A stretch of DNA of 64,000 nt, taken from NCBI RefSeq assembly GCF_003574965.1, contig NZ_CP032317.1, positions 1,302,001 to 1,366,000 on the forward strand, read 5' to 3'. Below, in pieces: positions 5,681 to 33,152 of this stretch; position 1 is the first letter of the stretch, and every line of letters starts with the position of its first letter. Below the pieces are notes generated by a model. The model was not told the origin of the DNA and did no database searches. It worked only from the letters and a program-made list of their open reading frames with translations. The position numbers and the translations under genes are program-made. This DNA is from Hymenobacter oligotrophus (GTDB lineage: Bacteria > Bacteroidota > Bacteroidia > Cytophagales > Hymenobacteraceae).

Positions 5681-6586
5681 CTAACTGCGCGGGTGAAACG
5701 CAGTGATTACCTGGCGCAGGTAGTCGCGGTCGAGGTGCGTGTAAATCTCGGTGGTGGTGATACTTTCGTGGCCGAGCATTTCCTGCACGGCGCGCAAATC
5801 GGCGCCGCCCTCAATCAGGTGCGTGGCAAACGAGTGCCGGAAAGTGTGCGGGCTGATGGTTTTGCGGATGCCCGCTTTGGCTGCCGTATCCTTAATAATG
5901 TTGAACACCATCACCCGCGACATGCCTCCGCCCCGCCGGTTCAGAAACACAATGTCCTCGGAGCCGTGCTGAATATCGAGGTGGCAGCGCACGCCCTCCA
6001 GGTAAAACCCTAGGTGCTTGAGCGCGTCGCGGCCGATGGGCACCAGGCGCTCCTTGGAGCCCTTGCCCAACACCCGCACAAAGCCCTGGTCGACGTAGAT
6101 GTTTGACAGCCGCAGCCCAATCAGCTCCGACACACGCAACCCCGAGGAATACAGCACCTCCAGCATGGCGCGGTTGCGGGTGCCCTCGTTGGTGCTCAGG
6201 TCAATGGCATCGAGCAATTGCACCACCTCCTCGTACGCCAGCGTATCGGGCAGTTTGCGGCCGAGCTTAGGCGAATCGACGGTATCGGTGGGGTCTTGGG
6301 TGGCGAGGTCTTCGATCAGCAGAAACTTGTAGAAGGCCCGCAGGCCCGATAAGGTGCGCGCTTGTGAGGTGGCCGTCAGGCCCAGTTCGCCCAGCCACGC
6401 CAGAAAGTCGCGGATGATGCGGCTGGTAACTTGGTCGGGCCGCGCGGGCAGCTTGCTGAGGTCGAGATACTGGCGCAGCTTGTCCACGTCGCGCACGTAA
6501 GCCTCTACGGAGTGTCCCGAAAGCGATTTTTCGAGGCGCAGATAGCCCTGAAACTGTTTCAGGCAAAGGGTCCAGTTCAAACTCAT
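5681..6586 (-). CDS. xerD: Tyrosine recombinase XerD
   Basis: The 301-residue protein has an N-terminal SAM-like core-binding domain (FQGYLRLEKSLSGHSVEAY) and a C-terminal catalytic domain with the expected Arg (SSGLRVSELIGL), His-x-x-Arg (HTFRHSFATHL), His (LGHESITTTEIY) and nucleophile Tyr (IYTHLDRDYL). Its length matches XerC/XerD, which resolve chromosome dimers at dif with FtsK, encoded nearby. The frame extends upstream to 6622, but the -7 element at 6593-6600 lies inside that extension, so the ATG at 6586 is preferred. XerD rather than XerC is chosen by overall similarity and is less certain. Confidence 0.88.
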   Translation of the reverse strand: MSLNWTLCLKQFQGYLRLEKSLSGHSVEAYVRDVDKLRQYLDLSKLPARPDQVTSRIIRDFLAWLGELGLTATSQARTLSGLRAFYKFLLIEDLATQDPTDTVDSPKLGRKLPDTLAYEEVVQLLDAIDLSTNEGTRNRAMLEVLYSSGLRVSELIGLRLSNIYVDQGFVRVLGKGSKERLVPIGRDALKHLGFYLEGVRCHLDIQHGSEDIVFLNRRGGGMSRVMVFNIIKDTAAKAGIRKTISPHTFRHSFATHLIEGGADLRAVQEMLGHESITTTEIYTHLDRDYLRQVITAFHPRS

Positions 6587-27558: not shown

Positions 27559-28452
27559 ATGAAGGAAAACCTTGCTTTCGTTGGCCTAGGTCATATGGGC
27601 CAAGCCATGGCCACCAACCTGTTGCTGGCCGGCTATCCGCTTACCCTCTACAACCGCACCCCCGGCCGGGCAGCCAACCTCGAAGAGCGCGGCGCCCGCA
27701 TGGCCGACTCGCCGGCCGATGCCGTGCGCAATGCGCAGGTAGTGTTTACCATGCTCACCGACGACGAAGCACTGGAAGAGCTGACCACCGGGCCCGACGG
27801 CATTCTAGAGGGCCTGCAAGCGGGTGCCATTCATGTATCGTGCAGCACAGTGGCGCCTGGTACCAACGCCCGGCTGGCCCAGGCCCATGAGGAAAAAGGC
27901 TCGCAGCTGGTGGCAGCGCCGGTGTTCGGCAAACCCATTGTGGCGGCCACCGGCCAGCTGTGGGTGTGCCTATCGGGCCCGGCCGAGGCCAAAGCGCGCA
28001 TTGCCCCCTTGCTGCTGCCGCTCAGCCAGGGCACCTTCGACCTAGGCGACGAGGTGGGCGCGGCCAACGTGGTGAAGCTATGCGGCAATTTTATGCTGGG
28101 CGCCGCCATCGAGGCCATGGCCGAAGCGTTTACGCTGGCCGAAAAGTGCGGCGTAAGCCGCGAGCAGGTGTACGAAATCATGACTACCTCGCTGTTCGAC
28201 AGCCCGGCCTACCGCAGCTACGGCCGCATGATTGCCGACGAAGACTACAAGCCAGCCGGTGCAGCGCCTTTTTTGCTGCAGAAAGATTTGCGCCTGACCC
28301 TGGCCGAAGCGCGCGAGCACAAAGTGCCCATGCCCGTGGCCAACATCGTGCTCGACCACCTCACGGCCACCGTGGCCCGCCACACCTCCGCCGACGAAGA
28401 CTGGACCTCGTTTGCGCGCCGCGTTTCGGAAAGTGCCGGGCTTATTCGCTAA
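27559..28452 (+). CDS. NAD(P)-dependent beta-hydroxyacid dehydrogenase
   Basis: The 297-residue protein has the Rossmann start FVGLGHMGQAMATNLL, the family signature VSCSTVAPG, AAPVFGKPIVAATGQLWV and the catalytic Lys in NVVKLCGNFMLG. It belongs to the 3-hydroxyisobutyrate dehydrogenase / tartronate semialdehyde reductase / GLYR1 family. The substrate cannot be fixed; many relatives reduce succinic semialdehyde or glyoxylate. The ATG at 27559 is chosen because the nucleotide fold starts there. It ends 1 bp into a hairpin whose arms carry CCTAGG. Confidence 0.88.
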   Translation: MKENLAFVGLGHMGQAMATNLLLAGYPLTLYNRTPGRAANLEERGARMADSPADAVRNAQVVFTMLTDDEALEELTTGPDGILEGLQAGAIHVSCSTVAPGTNARLAQAHEEKGSQLVAAPVFGKPIVAATGQLWVCLSGPAEAKARIAPLLLPLSQGTFDLGDEVGAANVVKLCGNFMLGAAIEAMAEAFTLAEKCGVSREQVYEIMTTSLFDSPAYRSYGRMIADEDYKPAGAAPFLLQKDLRLTLAEAREHKVPMPVANIVLDHLTATVARHTSADEDWTSFARRVSESAGLIR

Positions 28453-28490
28453 GCCCTAGGTGCCCGGCTACGGCCAGGCACCTAGGGCTT
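28451..28490. terminator. Convergent hairpin with CCTAGG arms
   Basis: AAGCCCTAGGTGCC (28451-28464) is the perfect reverse complement of 28477-28490, with a 12-nt loop. It lies between converging genes and probably terminates both. Each arm carries one copy of the iterated word. Confidence 0.65.
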
Positions 28491-30300: not shown

Positions 30301-31833
30301 CTAGCGCCGGCGGCGCTTGCGCGAGCCAAAGTCCTCTTCGTCCTCGTCATCGTCATCGGAGCCAAAGCTCGGCATCGTGAACATGGAGGAAAACAGATCT
30401 TTAAACTGAGTGCCGGCCGTGAGGCGGTTGCGCGAAATCAGGCTCATCTCGGCCATGCCGTGCAAGGCAAACTCCATCCAGAAATACGGATCGGCCTCAA
30501 ACAGCTCGGCCGGTACGCTTTGCTTGGCCAGGTCGTGCAGGCCGGGCACGGCCTCGAGAGCAGTGCGGTAATCGGCTTCGGAGGCGTCGTGCAGCACATC
30601 CACGGTGTGGGCACCAAACCAATCCTGCACGGGCTTGTACGCGTTGGGCTTGTCTTTCTGCTTTTTCACCTTCTCGGGGTCGGGGAAGTACTGCAGAAAC
30701 TGCGTGCGCAGGGCTTTGCCCATCAGCTTTTCGGCCACAATGCCGGCTCCCTCCTGCTCGCCTTCGTACACCAGCTCCACCTTGCCGGTAATGGCCGGCA
30801 CGGCCGCCAGAAAATCGGCTACCCGAATCCGCGTCGTGTCTTCGTTGTTGATGAGGGCGCGGCGCTCGGCAGCCGCTACCACTTGCTCGTAGGCCGAAAT
30901 GGTGAGGCGCGCCGACACGCCCGATTTGGCATCGACGTACTCCGAGCCGCGGGCCTCGATGGCCACCTGCTCTACCAAATCCAGCACCACCTCGTTGCCG
31001 ACCACGCGCTCCTGCTGCTCGGGCCGCAGGCGGGCTTCCTGACGGGTAATGCGCTTGCCGATTTCGATGGTTTTGGGGTAGTGCGTGATAATCTGGGCGT
31101 CGATGCGGTCCTTGAGCGGCGTTACGATGGAGCCGCGGTTGGTGTAGTCTTCGGGGTTGGCCGTGAAAACGAACTGAATATCGAGCGGCAACCGCACTTT
31201 GAAGCCCCGAATCTGGATGTCGCCTTCCTGCAAAATGTTGAACAGCGCCACCTGAATGCGGGCCTGCAAATCGGGCAGCTCGTTGATAACAAATATGCCG
31301 CGGTGGGCCCTGGGTATCAGACCGAAGTGAATCACGCGCTCATCCGAATAGGGCAGCTTGAGGGTAGCGGCTTTAATCGGGTCGGCGTCGCCGATGAGGT
31401 CGGCTACCGACACGTCGGGCGTAGCTAGCTTTTCGGTGTAACGCTCGGCGCGGTGCACCCAGGCAATGGGCGTGTCGTCGCCGCACTCGGCTACCAGGTC
31501 GCGGGCGTGGCGCGAAAGCGGCTGCAGCGGGTCGTCGTTCAGCTCCGAGCCTTCTACCACCGGCATGTACTCGTCGAGCAGCTCTACCAGTTGGCGGGCA
31601 ATGCGGGTTTTTGCCTGGCCGCGCAGGCCCAACAGGTTGATGTGGTGCAGGCTCAGGATGGCGCGCTGCAAGTCGGGAATAACCGTTTCCTCGTAGCCGT
31701 GGATGCCGGGGAAAGCGTTTTCGCGCCGGCGGAGTTTCTGGATGAGATTATCGCGCAATTCCTCGCGCACGGAGCGCGACCGATACCCCGCGGCTTTAAG
31801 CTGACCGAGGGTGCTGATTTGTTCGTGGTTCAT
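30301..31833 (-). CDS. MoxR / magnesium-chelatase-like AAA+ ATPase
   Basis: The 510-residue protein has Walker A GLRGQAKT at 69-76 and a Walker B in which the usual Asp-Glu is Asn-Glu (GIFVINELPDL). The sensor region FVFTANPEDYTNRGS and LTPLKDR-type element (VTPLKDRIDAQ) identify the MoxR/BchI clade. A long C-terminal region ends in an acidic run and a basic tail (KRRRR). Such ATPases act with VWA proteins to remodel or load cofactors into partners; the matching VWA gene is at 35512-36615. The ATG at 31833 (MNHEQISTLGQL) is preferred over one at 31860. Confidence 0.8.
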   Translation of the reverse strand: MNHEQISTLGQLKAAGYRSRSVREELRDNLIQKLRRRENAFPGIHGYEETVIPDLQRAILSLHHINLLGLRGQAKTRIARQLVELLDEYMPVVEGSELNDDPLQPLSRHARDLVAECGDDTPIAWVHRAERYTEKLATPDVSVADLIGDADPIKAATLKLPYSDERVIHFGLIPRAHRGIFVINELPDLQARIQVALFNILQEGDIQIRGFKVRLPLDIQFVFTANPEDYTNRGSIVTPLKDRIDAQIITHYPKTIEIGKRITRQEARLRPEQQERVVGNEVVLDLVEQVAIEARGSEYVDAKSGVSARLTISAYEQVVAAAERRALINNEDTTRIRVADFLAAVPAITGKVELVYEGEQEGAGIVAEKLMGKALRTQFLQYFPDPEKVKKQKDKPNAYKPVQDWFGAHTVDVLHDASEADYRTALEAVPGLHDLAKQSVPAELFEADPYFWMEFALHGMAEMSLISRNRLTAGTQFKDLFSSMFTMPSFGSDDDDEDEEDFGSRKRRRR

Positions 31834-31884
31834 CAGGTAGTGCGGAATGGGTGGGCACATGCCCCCGGGCTCTTAACCGCGAGG

Positions 31885-31914
31885 TGCGCACCTAGGTTCG
31901 AACCTAGGTGCGCA
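31885..31914. repeat. 30-bp perfect palindrome with two CCTAGG
   Basis: TGCGCACCTAGGTTC is followed directly by its exact reverse complement, so there is no loop. Copies of CCTAGG start at 31891 and 31903. Confidence 0.85.
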
Positions 31915-31969
31915 GTTTACGCAAACGACAGATGGGCGGGCAAAGGGGCGCGGTGCCGCCAGCCCTTTG

Positions 31970-32018
31970 GCGGCTTGTTACCTAGGGCCGAGCAAGGGCC
32001 GCCCTAGGTAAGCCGCCA
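31970..32018. repeat. Inverted repeat with paired CCTAGG
   Basis: TTACCTAGGGC (31978-31988) is the exact reverse complement of 32001-32011. With two extra bases on one side, the arms extend through GGCGGCTT and AAGCCGCC. Confidence 0.75.
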
Positions 32019-32177: not shown

Positions 32178-33152
32178 ATGAAAAAAGTCCTCAAATTCAT
32201 CGGCCTAGGCCTGGCAGCGGTATTCTTCGTGGCCATATGTGCCGCTGCCTACGTGCAGGTGCGCGGTATTCCGAGCTACGATAAGCCCCAAGTGGCCGCC
32301 CAACACATTGCCGTTACGCCGGTGCGCCTGGCGCAGGGCCAGAAAATCGTAAGCGCCATGTGCGCCGACTGCCACCTCGACCGCAGCACCGGTGCGTTGT
32401 CGGGCAAGCTGATGAACGACTTGCCGCCCGAATTCGGCCGCTTGTACTCGGCCAACATCACCCAAGACAAAGCCAACGGCATCGGCACCTGGACCGACGA
32501 AGAAATTGTGGGCCTGCTGCGCACCGGTATTGGCCGCGACGGGCGCTTCCGCATCGTAATGCCCAATTTCGTGCACATGTCCGACGAGGACGTGGCCAGC
32601 GTGGTGGCTTTTTTGCGCTCAAATGACCGCTTGGTAGCCGCCAACGCCACGCCCACCCACGCGCAGGAGCCGTCCTTCCTGGCCAAGACACTGGTACACA
32701 CCGTGATGAAACCCACGCCCATGCCCACCAGTGCGGTGGTGGCCCCACCCGCTACCGATGCCGTGGCCTACGGCCGTTACCTCGTACTGGGGCGCTACAA
32801 GTGCTACGACTGCCACAGCAAGGACTTCAAGACCAACAACGCCCTCGAGCCCGAAAAGTCGGAAGGCTACCTAGGCGGCGGCACGCACATGCTGACGCCC
32901 GAGGGCACCGACATCGTGACGCGCAACATCACCGCCGACCCCGAAACCGGCATCGGCGACTGGACGGAGGCGCAGTTTGTGGAAGCCGTGCGCTTTGGCC
33001 AATCGCCCAACGGGCCCCTCAAGCTGCCCATGCCCAAATTTACGCTCATGGATGAGACGGAGGCCAAGGCCATTTATGCCTACCTCCGCACCCTTCCTGT
33101 AATCAAAAACGCCACGCCCGAAGACGGCGGCGGTGCCGTGGCTGCGCGTTAG
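32178..33152 (+). CDS. Membrane-anchored di-heme cytochrome c
   Basis: The 324-residue protein has an N-terminal membrane segment (IGLGLAAVFFVAICAAAYV) and two cytochrome c domains. Heme motifs are Cys62-x-x-Cys65-His66 (CADCH) and Cys209-x-x-Cys212-His213 (CYDCH). Likely axial Met ligands lie in MPNFVHM and LPMPKFTLM. It is exported and probably passes electrons in the periplasm. The domain pair resembles the cytochrome subunits of alcohol/gluconate dehydrogenases, but no dehydrogenase is nearby. It ends at a strong terminator. It and the two TlpA genes stand between the MoxR-like gene and its VWA partner. Confidence 0.88.
   Translation: MKKVLKFIGLGLAAVFFVAICAAAYVQVRGIPSYDKPQVAAQHIAVTPVRLAQGQKIVSAMCADCHLDRSTGALSGKLMNDLPPEFGRLYSANITQDKANGIGTWTDEEIVGLLRTGIGRDGRFRIVMPNFVHMSDEDVASVVAFLRSNDRLVAANATPTHAQEPSFLAKTLVHTVMKPTPMPTSAVVAPPATDAVAYGRYLVLGRYKCYDCHSKDFKTNNALEPEKSEGYLGGGTHMLTPEGTDIVTRNITADPETGIGDWTEAQFVEAVRFGQSPNGPLKLPMPKFTLMDETEAKAIYAYLRTLPVIKNATPEDGGGAVAAR

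Follow-up and report, generated by a model that had tools for sequence, protein, structure and literature searches.

A genome-wide CTAG-core motif probably underlies the palindromes between a MoxR-like gene and a cytochrome c gene of Hymenobacter oligotrophus

Two divergent genes of Hymenobacter oligotrophus, one MoxR-like and one for a cytochrome c, are separated by a gap with two inverted repeats and four copies of the word CCTAGG. The question raised by this locus is whether the gap is a regulatory site in its own right, as the original prediction of a target for a dimeric DNA-binding protein implied, or one spot in a wider pattern. The window, that is, the whole stretch of DNA analysed, comprises 64,000 nucleotides and contains the following features.

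28451-28490: further CCTAGG hairpin between two convergent genes, an inverted pair AAGCCCTAGGTGCC / GGCACCTAGGGCTT with a 14-bp stem
30301-31833, minus strand: MoxR-like / ChlI-like AAA ATPase gene (Pfam PF01078, PF00158, PF07728)
31885-31914, no strand: perfect loopless 30-bp palindrome TGCGCA-CCTAGG-TTCGAA-CCTAGG-TGCGCA, read from the sequence
31891-31896 and 31903-31908: the CCTAGG sites of the palindrome, both of the rare ACCTAGGT octamer class
31968-32018: second inverted repeat from DNA folding, with a stem of 31968-31976 plus 31980-31988 against 32001-32018 and a 3-nt bulge at 31977-31979
31981-31986 and 32003-32008: the CCTAGG copies of the second repeat, an inverted ACCTAGGG / CCCTAGGT pair
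32178-33152, plus strand: cytochrome c gene on the opposite side of the gap (Pfam PF13442, PF00034)

For the MoxR-like gene, the open reading frame as listed starts at 31860; comparison with relatives suggests 31833 (MNHEQIS...) as the preferred start. The palindrome is composed of five hexamers, every one of them self-reverse-complementary, and is present in the sequence as originally predicted; the predicted second repeat (31978-31988 with 32001-32011) is likewise exact. The four CCTAGG copies, said to lie close together, span 118 bp (31891-32008), and a cluster count agreed that this gap is the densest CCTAGG cluster of the window. It is also the sole cluster of four copies inside 120 bp in the 444 kb of sampled chromosome, where 0.42 such clusters are expected if sites are spread randomly in each stretch, and it stays the sole one when the limit is widened to 200 bp. 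In single-strand folding, both repeats surpassed 200 of 200 shuffles (z of -7.9 and -6.4), and three Markov simulations of the 444 kb yielded no palindrome longer than 20 bp. The real 444 kb contains ten more perfect loopless palindromes of 24-48 bp, all without CCTAGG, indicating that such palindromes are not unique in this genome. Those of 38-48 bp occur at L021:15390, L010:14637, L005:4778, L020:2436 and L006:1705, some of them flanked by A/T runs in the manner of bidirectional terminators. Among other words in the 444-kb sample, TGCGCA reaches 2.9 times its base-composition expectation and GACGTC is rare (7 copies).

Several familiar element types were considered for the gap. The palindrome had been regarded as suiting a terminator less well than a dimeric protein or a cruciform, and the terminator part was borne out: between 31700 and 32300 there are 0 sites that resemble an intrinsic terminator (a G+C-rich stem followed by a T run), and a terminator was ruled out. 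A known RNA element was discarded as well, as the same region has no Rfam match at the gathering threshold. A transposable repeat or REP element was rejected since no second full copy of the 301-bp gap exists anywhere in the genome; besides itself and the reverse match of the palindrome, the gap gave one 42-bp match at 81% identity.

CCTAGG occurs in 5,678 copies in the 4.19-Mb genome, corresponding to one per 738 bp or about 1,355 per Mb and to 4.3 times the base-composition expectation. The reversed control GGATCC has 67 copies, but it is rare because GATC is avoided in this genome (observed/expected 0.27), so that comparisons with shuffles and base composition matter too. In the window, 89 copies were observed versus 13 expected by shuffles. 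All of the sampled 20-kb chromosomal stretches (19/19) carry CCTAGG, at 22-38 copies per stretch. The two small contigs, which may be mobile, hold 2 copies in 60 kb (C2, 1 in 20 kb and 1 in a further 20 kb; C3, 0 in 20 kb). The sampled density of 1,417 per Mb compares with 25 per Mb (3 in 120 kb) in six low genomes, and CCCAGG, one transition from CCTAGG, is depleted to 345 per Mb versus 717 in low genomes. Given that the sites in the palindrome arms belong to a set of 5,678 copies, of which about two-thirds lie in genes in the 444-kb sample, the word is a genome-wide one rather than a regulatory element specific to the gap. The 30-bp palindrome is a local pile-up of a chromosome-wide short word.

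The distribution along the chromosome was analysed on 629 sites in the 444-kb sample, with genes called by a simple script: called genes contain 424 of them, 30 fall on a gene edge, and the remaining 175 are intergenic. The density of CCTAGG is 2.8-fold higher outside than inside genes, a ratio that, in a seven-word control set, amounts to 0.53-1.13 for five palindromes, with GCTAGC, a word of identical core, at 2.42. Between genes, convergent gaps are the densest at 5.05 per kb, ahead of tandem (2.43) and divergent ones (2.26). No strand bias was found for the octamers described below (261 versus 272 per strand, p 0.66, 20 stretches), which ruled out a polar motif of the Chi/KOPS type. Neighbouring octamers up to 40 bp apart are inverted in 16 cases and direct in 3, and those 41-100 bp apart in 12 and 19 cases, respectively. 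The spacing is slightly evener than random, with a coefficient of variation of 0.882 against a null of 0.987 (SD 0.038) and 4 of 2,000 simulations as low; six of seven control words lie at 0.95-1.09, and CCAAGG at 0.887 (155 gaps).

The flanks of the word follow a rule, which was derived from 464 kb of sampled genome. The 629 sites fall into 341 ACCTAGGG, 192 ACCTAGGC, 38 ACCTAGGA and 14 ACCTAGGT, with 44 that lack a flanking A. The A thus occurs on exactly one side in 571 sites and on both in 14, while independence at the observed flank frequency of 0.476 would give about 314 and about 143, respectively. As the A is one-sided in 571 of 629 sites, the unit in this genome is the octamer ACCTAGGS, asymmetric although its core is a palindrome.

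Inside genes, the motif is accommodated by codon choice. The frame is xxC CTA GGx (x-Leu-Gly) at 392 genic sites and CCT AGG at the other 32. The leucine codon before glycine is CTA in 61% of 639 cases after C versus 7% of 560 otherwise; the corresponding values in two low relatives are 2% of 85 and 2% of 207 (G010) and 0% of 125 and 2% of 174 (G035). CTG, CTC, CTT and TTG are all reduced as CTA gains. The glycine codon follows the octamer rule: after xAC it is GGG or GGC in 148 of 159 cases, and xSC is followed by GGT in 181 of 207; H. polaris (G058) has GGG or GGC after xSC in 43 of 44 cases. This pattern is DNA-level writing and not translational, because the density of CCTAGG is 2.8 times higher outside genes.

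Among 200 Hymenobacteraceae genomes, nine exceed 5,000 copies of CCTAGG: this genome (G000), G004, G025, G058, G079, G137, G178, G180 and G184. Four of the others hold 1,209-2,331 copies and 187 hold at most 888, among them sister species whose 5-6 Mb contain 123-249 copies. By sequence identity, G058 is Hymenobacter polaris RP-2-7 and G178 is H. crusticola MIMBbqt21. Outside the family, the maximum among 391 sampled Bacteroidota genomes is 734. In a tree of the MoxR-like gene (18 of the genomes plus nine named loci; a single gene, without stated support values), the nine high genomes fall into three clades with low species between them. A second word with the same core, GCTAGC, reaches 7,271, 6,779 and 6,150 copies in G031, G036 and G049, where CCTAGG is at 270, 381 and 264, respectively; G178 and G180 carry both words, with GCTAGC at 6,583 and 6,725. 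The flanks also form dialects: ACCTAGGS is the form in G000, G004 and G025, CCCTAGGS accounts for 75 of 86 sites in G058, and ACCTAGGT is commonest in G079 (41 of 76). GATC is near-absent from several relatives, with 0 in 60 kb of G031 (L244, L271, L272), 0 in 80 kb of G049 (L251-L254), 1 in 60 kb of G058 (L045, L224, L225), 0 in 20 kb of G111 (L060) and 0 in 60 kb of G137 (L047, L228, L229), where base composition predicts 68-268 in these samples; whole-genome counts of GGATCC and CGATCG are near zero in several relatives, too.

Taken together, the density, the octamer rule, the distribution, the dialects, the lack of a fitting methyltransferase from five Pfam families in this genome and the absence of the perfect palindrome from 17 relatives make it probable that the locus displays a highly iterated CTAG-core motif and is not a dedicated operator. 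The four sites of the gap would belong to this chromosome-wide motif, ACCTAGGS in the present genome, which appears to be written into the DNA wherever the sequence tolerates it, through synonymous codons in genes and more densely between them. Such a motif may accumulate by molecular drive, with a DNA-recognising system favouring fragments that carry it. By analogy, an uptake-like drive resembling that of DNA uptake sequences (DUS), in which self DNA is taken up and recombined with a bias, is the best match for this accumulation, although we put it forward tentatively and at somewhat less than an even chance.

The pattern as a whole appears closest to DNA uptake sequences with dialects. Similar to the DUS of Neisseriaceae and the USS of Pasteurellaceae, the motif occurs about once per kb, within genes and more densely between them, and it favours neither strand, forms inverted pairs near the ends of genes, is sparse on small contigs and combines a fixed core with species dialects; the uptake-type features found here are thousands of copies at about one per kb, dialects, and intergenic enrichment with some inverted pairs. 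In contrast to those sequences, the core is a palindromic CTAG, the phylum is another one, and the motif occupies more than half of the Leu-Gly codons that permit it. According to PMC3630211, CTG is the core common to DUS dialects, and PMC1939737, which also gives GCCTAGGC as an under-represented example, describes DUS as not palindromic. ComEC (PF03772) was found in 20 of 20 genomes, whether their motif level is high, middle or low; competence genes therefore do not track the motif, and they neither refute nor single out uptake. Within the phylum, a self-DNA preference is described for Riemerella, a flavobacterium, with A/T-rich words as the most frequent ones, in PMC7965970. That a CTAG-core uptake or self-recognition sequence with dialects (CCTAGG, GCTAGC or mixed) evolved at least three times in the Hymenobacteraceae, as the first in Bacteroidota, is a conceivable extension, which we rate as less likely than not. 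If so, the CTAG-core system of this family would be strong enough to rewrite more than half of the permissive Leu-Gly codons in this genome.

An alternative is a process like that proposed for HIP1 in cyanobacteria in Elhai's model, in which the sites are generated and retained by a CCTAGG- or CTAG-specific methyltransferase coupled to a ratchet such as mismatch repair. The palindromic core, the patchy and polyphyletic occurrence and the density of about 1,355 per Mb, which lies inside the 1,000-2,000 per million given for HIPs in section 15 of PMC4390886, speak for this process. Alternate words in related genomes are a further trait shared with HIP1 (PMC4390886). HIP1 differs from the present motif in that the latter has a one-sided A flank and hence an asymmetric unit, a CTAG instead of a GATC core, a home in Hymenobacteraceae and no matching enzyme in the five families searched. 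HIP alternates are described as at least 75% G+C in section 15 of PMC4390886; CCTAGG has 4 of 6 and ACCTAGGG 5 of 8. In the METHYLTRANSFERASE test of the nine high genomes, PF00145 was found in 2, PF01555 in 4, PF02086 in 0 and PF02384 in 8, and PF07669 was above the cut-off in 7, G000 and G025 being the exceptions; no fitting family is common to all nine, and across the five Pfam families neither G000 nor G025 has a candidate for a CCTAGG-fitting methyltransferase. The single match above cut-off in G000 is a type I HsdM (PF02384 plus HsdM_N), with HsdS-like and HsdR-like neighbours recognised by eye, and the single match in G025 sits on a 12.5-kb contig, with 2 CCTAGG in 12 kb. The cyanobacterial HIP model is therefore not matched as far as these five families extend. 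For cyanobacteria, PMC4390886 describes a putative matching enzyme in every genome where words are highly over-represented, but also mentions HIP1-rich genomes without the CGATCG enzyme. We consider a HIP1-like process unlikely here. As a separate observation, the type I restriction-modification set of this genome (HsdM, HsdS-like and HsdR-like, L267:4650-11268) lies in a 12-kb region with 2 CCTAGG and 10 GCTAGC.

Selection for CCTAGG as the target of an abundant protein that organises or repairs the chromosome is similarly improbable. The even spacing of the word, its lack of strand bias and its presence in every sampled stretch would suit such a protein; however, sister species with 123-249 copies live without the motif, its specificity differs between close genera, and its conservation is moderate. 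In G004, 56 of 80 aligned window sites are kept (rank 149 of 1,555) and in G025 47 of 76 (rank 125 of 1,555), compared with median hexamer conservation of 0.52 and 0.41, respectively; the low relatives G010 and G035 keep 1 of 50 and 0 of 44. Site conservation is moderately above that of the median hexamer and not extreme, and conservation as proof of selection was dropped for this reason.

A simple bias of mutation or codon use toward CCTAGG that operates without any recognition system is very unlikely. The depletion of CCCAGG would be expected from it, as would the finding that CCTGGG or CCCAGG stands at 11 of the 24 positions where G004 lacks the site, but such a bias does not account for the intergenic excess, which the control words other than GCTAGC do not share, nor for the fact that CTG, CTC, CTT and TTG all give way to CTA, nor for an octamer rule that couples both flanks. 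A dedicated operator or cruciform controlling the MoxR-like and cytochrome c genes, to which the divergent position, the perfect dyad and the folding scores would lend themselves, is the least probable explanation and highly doubtful, as CCTAGG is everywhere in the genome and none of 17 relatives has the palindrome in the roughly 450 bp that precede the MoxR-like gene; the comparison with relatives suggested along with the operator thus spoke against it.

A highly iterated CTAG-core motif, the reading we prefer, would bear on wider questions. Word-filled chromosomes are known in few bacterial groups, with Chi, uptake sequences and HIP1 as the classes named in section 3 of PMC4390886. Our search of the open literature, under the terms tried, retrieved no paper that connects Hymenobacter with CCTAGG or uptake sequences, or Bacteroidota with highly iterated palindromes. 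The Hymenobacteraceae would be a second and unrelated group of this kind and would constitute a natural experiment: the motif has dialects, it rose three or more times in the one-gene tree, sister species are almost devoid of it, and no obvious methyltransferase accompanies it. A gene that sets motif-rich sisters apart from motif-poor ones should lead to its cause. Codon choice, too, reflects a process acting on DNA in these genomes, and, if uptake is the true cause, the motif would reveal the means by which these bacteria give preference to self DNA.

The origin of the 30-bp palindrome itself can be approached through the nearest relatives, G004 and G025, which keep one of its two CCTAGG sites; the second inverted repeat has no aligned counterpart in either. 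The conserved copy is 31891-31896, in the arm nearer the MoxR-like gene, and TTCGAACCTAGGTGC (reverse reading) is common to all three genomes. On the MoxR strand, G004 and G025 read TGCGCATCGCC-TTCGAACCTAGGTGCCTACCTCG, with the conserved copy gene-proximal, and the alignment on this strand identifies the copy at 31903-31908 as a lineage-specific gain. In full, TGCGCATCGCC-TTCGAA-CCTAGG-TGCCTA in G004 and G025 corresponds to TGCGCACCTAGG-TTCGAA-CCTAGG-TGCGCA in this genome, so that two clustered changes, one per arm, raise the ungapped arm complementarity from 4/15 to 15/15. Farther congeners read GCC or similar before CGAACC, and the G004/G025 form is probably the older one, as it fits these sequences; since the MoxR tree pairs G004 with G025, the polarity rests on the farther relatives.

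The second CCTAGG and the second TGCGCA would then have arisen in this lineage as mirror images of existing ones, for which template switching during replication may be the simplest route, judging from the three genomes. The perfecting of palindromes by template switching is a known process, as set out in PMC7202029, but the weak complementarity of the older arms (4/15 ungapped) makes it less certain here. As in quasipalindrome template-switch mutation, clustered multi-base changes would have perfected an imperfect inverted repeat; unlike the typical case, both arms changed, the older repeat was weak, and the process is reconstructed from three genomes. Alternatively, the genome-wide process may first have supplied the second CCTAGG, with the other arm changing afterwards. 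A conserved stretch, CGAACC followed by a GTTA-like sequence, lies at the same place in five low relatives of the genus, G010, G015, G020, G030 and G035, corresponding to about 31850-31905 of the window. This stretch upstream of the MoxR-like gene may belong to a leader or a promoter, in which case the palindrome would overlap such an element.
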